A stretch of 64,000 nucleotides of DNA from an unicellular cyanobacterium SU3 (lineage in GTDB: Bacteria; Cyanobacteriota; Cyanobacteriia; Cyanobacteriales; Microcystaceae), in contig NETF01000007.1 in NCBI GenBank assembly GCA_002172675.1, positions 1 to 64,000 on the forward strand. Direction: 5' to 3'. A program made the translations under genes and the position numbers. How positions within the stretch are numbered: the stretch's first letter is position 1; each line of letters opens with the position of its first letter. Below are positions 28,999-31,870 of the stretch, one piece after another. Under the pieces are notes generated by a model, which worked only from the letters and a program-made list of their open reading frames with translations, was not told the DNA's origin and made no database searches.

Positions 28999-29028
28999 TG
29001 ACTGATGATTGATAACTGATAACTGTTA
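28994..29028. repeat. degenerate 7-bp tandem repeat joining uma2 and hflX stops
   Basis: Five consecutive heptads: ACTGATG, ACTGATG, ATTGATA, ACTGATA, ACTGTTA. They cover the entire 27-bp gap between the two convergent genes and include both stop codons (TGA 28996-28998; TTA 29026-29028, the complement of TAA). Confidence 0.7.
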
Positions 29029-30738
29029 AAAACTAGAATTATTTAACGCATATTGAACCAGTTGACTTAATTTATGGCGTAACGTTTCTAACCCTAACCG
29101 TTGACTGGCAGAAATAAACACAGCTAAAGGATACTCTTCCTGTGCAGTCCGTAAGGTTTCTCCGTCTACCGTATCAATCTTATTAAACACTAATAAAATT
29201 GGACCAGGAACTAACGGCATTTCCTGTAAAATGGTCATTACAGACTGTATATGATGCTGCCAAGCAGGGTGAGATAAATCAACCAAATGCAACAAAGCAT
29301 CTGCTTCTGTCACCTCTTCTAAAGTTGCACGAAACGCATCAACCAAAGACGGGGGCAACTCATGAATAAATCCTACCGTATCTGTTAACAAGAAAGTGTA
29401 AGGTTGTTGTGTGTTATTATCAATACCCGATAAACGGCGAGTTGTCGGATCAAGAGTAGCAAATAATTGATCGGCAGTATAAACCTCTGCATTAGTCAGC
29501 GCATTGATCAAAGTGGACTTACCTGCGTTAGTATAACCGACAATAGAGATAGTCGGAACTTCCTGTTTTTGACGTTGTTGACGCAAACGGGACCGATGAG
29601 ACTGTAACTTATTCACCTCTTGTTGCAGCCGAGAAATACGCCGTTGAATACTCCGACGTTCCGTTTCTAGCTTAGTTTCCCCTGGTCCTCTGGTTCCGAT
29701 ACCACCCCCTAACCTAGACATAGCTTGACCTCGCCCTACCAACCGAGGCAACATATATTCTAACTGGGCTAACTCTACCTGTAACTTACCGGCGCGAGAC
29801 TGGGCCCGTTGGGCAAAAATATCTAAAATAACCTCGGTGCGATCAACTACTTTCACCCCTAACTGAGTCTCTAAGTTACGGACTTGGGCCGGGGATAAGT
29901 CGATACTAAACACCACTAAATTCGCTCCCAAAGTTTGCACCCGTAACGCAATTTCTTCTACTTTCCCCTTTCCCACAAGAGTTTGAGGATGGGGTTTTGG
30001 TCGCTTTTGTTGAATGGTTTCCACGGTTTCGCCGCCGGCAGTTTCTACCAGTCTTTCTACTTCAGCCAACTCCTCATTAAAAGTGCGATCGCTCATTTTT
30101 TCAGTTTGTAAACCCACAATGACCACCCGTTCGTGATCCCCTTCCACTTGTTGGGCCACATATTCCCGACGAAACTCTGCCTCTAACCCTTCGACTAACC
30201 CTAAAAAGTCCTGTTCTGAGAGGGTTTCTAAGGTCATGGCCGGGGAAACCGTCCAGTAATAGGTATGGTTGGGGTTAAACTCGGAAGCCGGCAATAAATG
30301 GGCAATATAAGCTTCTTTGACGTATCCTGTTGCCCCACCTCCCCGACGCGTTTTTCCTTCTGAGGTAACTGATAACATTACCAACGTATCGAGGCGTTGC
30401 AGTACCATTGCCGTTAAACTGGACTCTTTCGGGGGATCAGCCTTGAATTGAGTCCCAATGCAACGAATACCGCAAAGTCGTTCGGCCCCATAACGAGGTA
30501 ATTCTAATGCTGGTATTTGAGTTTGCCGAGGGGTTCCCACTCCCACCCGAATCACTTGGCCACGACGATTAATATAAGCGCATACCCCTTGACCGAGATC
30601 AGAACTCACCGCCGCCAGCCGTTGGGCAAACTCTGGAGACGTGAAGCGATCGCCCCGTAGTTTTTGATGATAAAGTCGCTTTAACTGCTTGATTTGATTC
30701 GGTTTTAACCCTTGCAGGTTTCCGTAAATAGTATCGAT
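29026..30738 (-). CDS. hflX: GTPase HflX, apparent ATC start
   Basis: Ribosome-associated GTPase that rescues or splits stalled ribosomes. About 570 residues: a cyanobacterial N-terminal extension, the HflX domain with TLVGKGKVEEI, a basic coiled coil, then the G domain with GYTNAGKSTL (G1), DTVGF (G3) and NKID (G4). The first conventional start is a GTG at 30609, but coding similarity continues 43 codons upstream (IDTIYGNLQGLKPNQIKQLK). As I recall, cyanobacterial HflX proteins begin with METIYGNLQG. The codon in the Met position is ATC (30736-30738), preceded by a perfect AGGAGG with 7-bp spacing. Follows the YkgJ gene by 21 bp. Confidence 0.85.
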   Translation of the reverse strand: MDTIYGNLQGLKPNQIKQLKRLYHQKLRGDRFTSPEFAQRLAAVSSDLGQGVCAYINRRGQVIRVGVGTPRQTQIPALELPRYGAERLCGIRCIGTQFKADPPKESSLTAMVLQRLDTLVMLSVTSEGKTRRGGGATGYVKEAYIAHLLPASEFNPNHTYYWTVSPAMTLETLSEQDFLGLVEGLEAEFRREYVAQQVEGDHERVVIVGLQTEKMSDRTFNEELAEVERLVETAGGETVETIQQKRPKPHPQTLVGKGKVEEIALRVQTLGANLVVFSIDLSPAQVRNLETQLGVKVVDRTEVILDIFAQRAQSRAGKLQVELAQLEYMLPRLVGRGQAMSRLGGGIGTRGPGETKLETERRSIQRRISRLQQEVNKLQSHRSRLRQQRQKQEVPTISIVGYTNAGKSTLINALTNAEVYTADQLFATLDPTTRRLSGIDNNTQQPYTFLLTDTVGFIHELPPSLVDAFRATLEEVTEADALLHLVDLSHPAWQHHIQSVMTILQEMPLVPGPILLVFNKIDTVDGETLRTAQEEYPLAVFISASQRLGLETLRHKLSQLVQYALNNSSF

Positions 30739-30745
30739 AGGCCAA

Positions 30746-30751
30746 CCTCCT
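30746..30751 (-). promoter_or_regulatory. Shine-Dalgarno AGGAGG deciding the hflX start
   Basis: On the minus strand AGGAGG ends seven bases before the ATC at 30738. It lies in the short gap after the YkgJ stop codon, so it cannot serve that gene. No ATG, GTG or TTG in the hflX frame lies at a suitable distance; a TTG directly abutting it is out of frame. Confidence 0.7.
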
Positions 30752-30759
30752 GATTGTGG

Positions 30760-31128
30760 TTAGTTATTTTCTCTAATTCCTCTATTATAGTCTTCCATTT
30801 CTACACTTGGCTTCCCATAAACCCCTTCAATTTGTTGCCGACAACAGTCTATAGCAAATTCATTAAAATCAGGGGGATCAATATCATACATTTCTTGAAA
30901 CGTATTGGGTTGCACACGACAAAAACGAGGACGCTGTTCATAAATTAAACATTTTCGGCTTTCATGGTCAAAATGAATGCACCATCCATTTTCCCCTACT
31001 AAACTTAGATAATGCTCTAATTCGTCCGGGGTTAAATAGTCTTCTAAGTCAGGGCGATCGCTTGGATCTAAGTTACAACAAGCCCCACACGCCCCTACAC
31101 ATTTCCATATTTCTTTTTTGGTCTTCAT
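30760..31128 (-). CDS. YkgJ-family cysteine-cluster protein
   Basis: 122-residue protein with eight or more cysteines arranged as in the YkgJ/Fe-S zinc-ribbon-like family: CVGACGACCNLDPSDRPDL near the N-terminus, then WCIHFDHESRKCLIYEQRP with FCRVQPN, and a late DCCRQQIEGVYG. It probably binds an iron-sulfur cluster or zinc; its reaction is unknown. The gene precedes hflX by 21 bp on the same strand and likely shares its transcript. It starts at an ATG in an AT-rich region. Confidence 0.85.
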   Translation of the reverse strand: MKTKKEIWKCVGACGACCNLDPSDRPDLEDYLTPDELEHYLSLVGENGWCIHFDHESRKCLIYEQRPRFCRVQPNTFQEMYDIDPPDFNEFAIDCCRQQIEGVYGKPSVEMEDYNRGIRENN

Positions 31129-31230
31129 TAAGTTTCAATTTATTAATTTCTCTTTCTATTTTACTCTTTTTGATGGCTTGATATAATCAAAGGTAACTAT
31201 GTTATGATAATTATCGAGGATTATTTAATC

Positions 31231-31551
31231 ATGAATACACTTTTCAAACTCAATTTACCTATTTCTTTAAACATTGAACAGATACATGATTTTTGTCAGC
31301 TTCATGATATTCAGAAATTATCTTTATTTGGTTCAATTTTGAGAGAAGATTTTACAGATAATAGTGATGTGGATTTTTTAGTAATATTTGAACCTGATGC
31401 CATTCCTGGATATTTACGTTTAGCCGCTATGGAATTAGAGTTATCAGAAATAATTAAGCGAAAAGCTGATTTACGAACCTTAGCAGAATTAAGTCGTTAT
31501 TTTCGTCATCAAGTTGAAAAAGAAGCGGTAGCTATTTATGTCAAAAATTGA
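31231..31551 (+). CDS. mntA: MntA-type nucleotidyltransferase antitoxin
   Basis: 106-residue minimal nucleotidyltransferase. The catalytic GS-x10-D-x-D motif is intact in FGSILREDFTDNSDVDFLV, so AMP transfer is expected. In type VII toxin-antitoxin pairs MntA adenylylates a Tyr in HepT and so inactivates it. The ATG at 31231 is chosen over the one at 31204 because GAGGA lies ten bases upstream and family members start close to this point. It overlaps hepT by 14 bp. Confidence 0.85.
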   Translation: MNTLFKLNLPISLNIEQIHDFCQLHDIQKLSLFGSILREDFTDNSDVDFLVIFEPDAIPGYLRLAAMELELSEIIKRKADLRTLAELSRYFRHQVEKEAVAIYVKN

Positions 31552-31870
31552 TGATTCTACCAGACTATCCCATATAAAAGATGCTGCTAATGAAGCTTTA
31601 TTTTTTATTCAAGGCAAAACTAGAGAATCTTTAAATACAGACAGAATGTTAGTCTTATCTTTAATTCGTTTAGTTGAAGTGATTGGAGAAGCAGTCTCCA
31701 GAGTCTCTAAAGAAAAACAAAAAGAAATTAATAACCTTCCTTGGCCGCAAATCATTAGCATGAGAAACCGTTTAATTCATAATTATTATGAAGTTTATTT
31801 AGATATTTTATGGAAAACTGTGACAGAAGATTTACCATTCTTACTTAATATTTTAGAGGAGCATATTTGA
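31538..31870 (+). CDS. hepT: HepT-type HEPN ribonuclease toxin
   Basis: 110-residue all-helical HEPN protein (DUF86). The RX4HXY motif is intact in MRNRLIHNYYEV (about 86-97): the Arg and His are the RNase residues, and the Tyr is the known target of MntA-dependent modification. It starts inside the last codons of mntA (14-bp overlap), the standard coupled arrangement for this type VII pair. Toxicity is inferred from the family. Confidence 0.87.
   Translation: MSKIDDSTRLSHIKDAANEALFFIQGKTRESLNTDRMLVLSLIRLVEVIGEAVSRVSKEKQKEINNLPWPQIISMRNRLIHNYYEVYLDILWKTVTEDLPFLLNILEEHI

Follow-up and report, generated by a model that had tools for sequence, protein, structure and literature searches.

The hflX gene examined here lies on the minus strand of a 64,000-nucleotide stretch of DNA from the unicellular cyanobacterium SU3, called the window below. 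Its coding sequence occupies 29026..30738, which gives 570 amino acids when counted from an ATC codon at 30736..30738, with matches to TIGR03156 and Pfam. Upstream on the same strand is a ykgJ-like gene (30760..31128), whose TAA stop (30762-30760) falls in the hflX frame and closes it above the ATC, leaving a gap of 21 bp between the two genes. Read in the hflX frame, the minus strand runs TAA CCA CAA TCA GGA GGT TGG CCT ATC GAT ACT ATT TAC GGA. The junction contains a Shine-Dalgarno (SD) motif, AGGAGG, at 30746..30751 (minus strand), with a spacer of 7 nt to the ATC and of 1 nt to codon −2, and a GCCT in conserved context directly before the start (30739..30742, minus strand). A candidate promoter −10 box, TATAAT, lies at 30784..30789 on the same strand, inside the 3′ end of ykgJ, and is kept in Crocosphaera, with which the window genome groups.

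Because the ykgJ stop is in the hflX frame, the start must lie within the seven codons before the ATC, at the ATC itself, or later. No ATG, GTG or TTG occurs in this frame from the ykgJ stop through codon 43 of hflX; the first is a GTG at codon 44 (30607..30609, minus strand), which is probably not the start. An earlier note on this DNA had described the AGGAGG seven bases before the ATC, the 21-bp gap after the YkgJ gene and the 43 codons without ATG, GTG or TTG ahead of the GTG, and all of its coordinates hold. Beside ykgJ, two adjoining small ORFs on the plus strand (31204-31870) resemble, by eye only, an MNT/HEPN nucleotidyltransferase pair.

To judge from comparison of the window with its relatives, the reading frame is coding all the way back to the ATC at 30738-30736. 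The pooled pN/pS is 0.18 for codons 1-43 vs 0.205 for codons 44-115, so purifying selection acts on the first 43 codons as it does on the 72 that follow, and they are therefore coding; the coding similarity reported in the earlier note for the stretch upstream of the GTG is thus borne out. Within Crocosphaera, dS is seemingly lower in codons 1-43 (30609-30738) than in codons 44-115 (0.32 vs 0.97 in the relative L006), perhaps reflecting a constraint at the mRNA level near the hflX start.

By its domain content the product is HflX, a predicted ribosome-splitting GTPase: it scores 477 bits against TIGR03156 (GTP_HflX), for which the cut-off is 216.75, and PF13167, PF16360 and PF01926, the HflX N-terminal, middle and G domains, are all above their cut-offs. 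The Pfam HflX domains start at residue 222, and HflX chains in the PDB align from about residue 166. The preceding N-terminal extension, some 200 residues long (IYGNLQGLK..., window 30130-30738), carries no Pfam domain. An AlphaFold model of the protein, built from a 10-sequence alignment, had a mean pLDDT of 49.6 and was set aside. In families f35 and f36, many of the small genomes (1.6-3 Mb; G136, G151, G158, G179, G181, G183 and others) have no detectable hflX that bears the extension.

The earlier note had weighed two readings, real use of a non-canonical start against mutation of an ATG with the internal GTG now in use. Under the latter, a canonical ATG has been lost in this genome, by mutation or sequencing error, and the start now falls at codon 44, whose GTG is indeed the nearest canonical in-frame start. 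The relatives leave this explanation almost no room. Every Crocosphaera relative has ATC at the column, behind AAGGAGG and with identical spacing, while the GTG of codon 44 is absent in sister Crocosphaera, whose first in-frame ATG, GTG or TTG comes 61-79 codons after the ATC. Starting at the internal GTG would also drop 43 conserved codons that are under purifying selection.

The same column is occupied by ATC, ATA or ATT (collectively ATH) far beyond these genomes, in all relatives of the first set (38/38). Among 92 distinct 5′ ends sampled across the phylum, 57 had ATC, 20 ATA and 5 ATT, with ATG limited to second hflX copies and one sister-class genome. Since our first-stage tally (78 genes) was preselected for ATH, frequencies are better read from the main copies of a class-wide sample taken regardless of the codon, where 54 of 62 have ATH (44 ATC, 9 ATA and 1 ATT). 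Counted by family labels, 48 of the 51 families with hflX show ATH, and the exceptions have a TTG two codons upstream (f34), an ATG one codon upstream (f60) or an unclear alignment (f48). ATG is absent at this column from all sampled main copies. A strict N-terminus pattern with ATH gave matches in 47 of 338 class genomes, and the same pattern with ATG, GTG or TTG in its place gave none in the 338.

These counts bear directly on the expectations of the earlier note. It had assigned Met at this position to cyanobacterial HflX proteins; that holds for second hflX paralogues only, and for the main copies, which have ATH, it was mistaken. It had also proposed that ATC in several relatives would speak for real use, and ATH proves to be class-wide. 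The conserved codon thus gives strong support to the non-canonical start that the note put first. The sister, non-photosynthetic class is mixed, with AGGAGG-N8-ATC in L098, AGGAGG-N6-ATT in L100 and ATG in L101 and L102; because ATC and ATT behind AGGAGG also occur there, the trait may predate the class Cyanobacteriia.

Several features of the genes and their leaders single out the ATH codon as the place of initiation. In 90 of 131 ATH genes there is no ATG, GTG or TTG between the preceding in-frame stop and the ATH, and in three leaders (L028, L075 and L186) the stop lies two codons before the ATH, with a single codon between. SD 4-mers are found 4-11 nt before the ATH in 42 of 78 leaders, compared with 9 in shuffles (maximum 18), and class-wide they peak at 7-10 nt before it. 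Of the 131 leaders, 107 have a TANRAT box upstream, compared with 23 when the sequences are shuffled; it ends at a median of 39 nt upstream, so that the leaders are short. Codon usage points the same way: codon 1 is ATC, ATA or ATT in 99, 29 and 3 genes, whereas an ordinary Ile codon of the same proteins, codon 4, is so in 62, 4 and 54, and by this skew codon 1 stands apart from an Ile codon that is read in the normal way (chi-square p 1.6e-16; our tests count genes as independent, and shared ancestry inflates the p values).

A hairpin separates a G-rich SD-like element from the hflX start in 24 leaders, many of them from family f25 and other groups, and it always lies 9-11 nt from the ATH (the leaders with such a spacer hairpin are listed as L027, L030, L043-L058, L062-L071, L074, L105 and L109). 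The stems differ in their pairs: GGCCAG/CTGGTC, GACCAA/TTGGTC, GCCAG/CTGGC and GGATCGG/CCGATCC. Taken together, hflX shows three sequence-level marks of genes with conserved non-canonical starts: conserved coding that reaches back to a non-NTG codon and has no canonical in-frame start above it, conservation of that codon among relatives, and a properly spaced SD. We therefore regard AUH as almost certainly the start codon of hflX, AUC here and AUA or AUU elsewhere.

An unlikely alternative is that translation truly starts two codons upstream (NNG-CCT-ATH, with ATG or GTG in first position in some lineages and ACG or other weak codons in the rest), which would make the ATH a normal Ile codon, the third of the protein. 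The CCT before the ATH is conserved, a similar arrangement, ACG-CCT-GTG, occurs at infC, and among the 131 ATH genes codon −2 is canonical in 17 (GTG in 10, ATG in 5 and TTG in 2) and ACG in 28. But codon −2 is also TGG, TCG, GGG, AAG, GCG and even a stop, and in Crocosphaera it is only 1 nt from AGGAGG. Four leaders (L011, L012, L014 and L015) do have an ATG or GTG at codon −2, but their SD has the right spacing for the ATC and is too near to, or overlaps, that upstream codon. Furthermore, the ATG of the second copies falls at the ATH column, and codon 1 does not have normal Ile codon usage. A start at codon −2 is rejected as a general rule by the stops and non-start codons found there, by the SD spacing and by the paralogue ATG. 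The start may nevertheless have moved in some lineages with ATG, GTG, TTG or ACG two codons upstream; in family f25, codon −2 is ACG, a possible weak start too.

CCT directly precedes the ATH in 67 of the 131 leaders, as GCCT in 54, and GCCT precedes none of the other 50 ORF starts of the window. Cyanobacterial infC (L110-L135, with L121 from the window genome) reads ACG-CCT-GTG, where the first position may be ACG, ACA, ATG or TTG and a stop often lies just upstream. Its start is thus GTG or the non-canonical ACG, and CCT, mostly as GCCT, is common to the starts of infC and hflX. We rejected infC as a control for ATH initiation, as in cyanobacteria it begins with GTG or ACG.

Frameshifting out of a frame upstream, or translational coupling to ykgJ, is a very improbable way for ribosomes to reach hflX. 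The end of ykgJ does lie 21 bp upstream in Crocosphaera, but the upstream sequence differs outside that group, the leaders contain no conserved upstream reading frame, and there are promoter boxes some 39 nt upstream. Coupling to ykgJ could modulate the start of hflX but not replace it.

In many cyanobacteria hflX occurs twice, and the second, diverged copy usually has ATG (L206-L218, L106-L108 and L096). Of 16 second copies, 11 have ATG at the exact start column (L210-L218, L106 and L108), for the most part alongside a main copy with ATH, and no main copy has it there; three second copies of a single family (L207-L209) retain ATC. The difference is highly significant without correction for shared ancestry (Fisher p 2e-13), and it is seen repeatedly, in several families. 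The second copies with ATG thus offer a ready natural comparison.

One can ask whether the ATH start is simply a neutral relic, in a gene where any of several starts works and nothing is regulated. E. coli growing normally can do without HflX, a factor that splits 70S ribosomes in times of stress (PMC9067457), and a weak start might be tolerated. Drift should then often yield ATG, as is seen in the second copies, but no main copy has it, even though many families have exchanged ATC for ATA, and the 29 genes with ATA are a single transition away. This pattern, with ATA one step from ATG, main copies that never have ATG and second copies that do, is what would be expected if the weak start were under selection. 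We accordingly consider a neutral relic rather unlikely, and selection for a weak start that limits HflX likely; we hold the same degree of belief in the joint claim that AUH is the start and that its weakness has been selected to limit HflX.

How such a start might work can be outlined in three steps. The sequences give good support to the first, in which AGGAGG tethers the 30S subunit to the short leader (many filamentous groups would use a G-rich element that the hairpin brings close), initiator tRNA is placed on the AUH, and synthesis begins with fMet-(Asp/Glu)-Thr-Ile-Tyr-Gly.... In the second, the mismatch at the third codon position would make initiation poor and keep HflX scarce. In the third, IF3, which represses non-NTG starts (PMC5472188), would reject the AUH, and translation of hflX would rise whenever there is too little active IF3 for the 30S subunits present, as inferred by analogy with infC and sigR. 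With HflX splitting 70S ribosomes and IF3, the anti-association factor, holding ribosomal subunits apart (PMC9067457), the two would form a feedback loop on the pool of free subunits.

On the strength of that analogy, we give IF3-dependent control of hflX an even chance. The broader version, in which IF3 activity sets HflX synthesis throughout the class and the GCCU shared by hflX and infC and the hairpin between SD and start are further parts of the control, is more speculative, and we think it somewhat less likely than not. Since infC in cyanobacteria does not itself start at ATH, the classical IF3 loop is not carried over unchanged. If it were true, IF3-set synthesis of HflX would link the splitting of 70S ribosomes to the free-subunit pool across a whole bacterial class.

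To our knowledge, very few bacterial genes keep a non-NTG start over deep time. From the sequences compared here hflX would be an additional case, with conservation that is unusually deep: a weak start has apparently been kept through most sampled cyanobacteria, in a gene whose product acts on the same subunits that IF3 guards. We found no report of a non-canonical start for hflX in the literature searched, though Sato and Tajima (2012), with their N-terminal alignments, could mention one. The practical consequence is that start rules limited to ATG, GTG and TTG would either miss the start of cyanobacterial HflX or shorten the protein by tens of residues.

A close parallel is infC, whose E. 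coli start is ATT and whose Streptomyces start is ATC (PMC5472188). Like hflX, it has a conserved ATH start and a product that acts on ribosomal subunits; hflX differs in encoding a GTPase that splits 70S ribosomes, and in that its control by IF3 is proposed by analogy only. Streptomyces sigR, which has a GTC start and is repressed by IF3, resembles hflX in that a strong SD precedes an unusual start which its relatives share, and was likewise mis-annotated by start-codon rules (PMC5472188). The sigR start was proved experimentally in one genus, whereas that of hflX is class-wide and known from sequence alone. In E. coli hflX also begins with a codon other than ATG, but its TTG is an accepted canonical start, unlike the cyanobacterial ATH, and the E. 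coli protein is without the roughly 200-residue N-terminal extension of the window HflX. That ATA and ATT can initiate in cyanobacteria is indicated by proteomics of Nostoc sp. PCC 7120, where eight revised genes have such starts, given in the main text without gene names (PMC8557916). ATA is also the first codon of hflX in family f25, taken here as the Nostoc family, and hflX may for this reason be among those eight.
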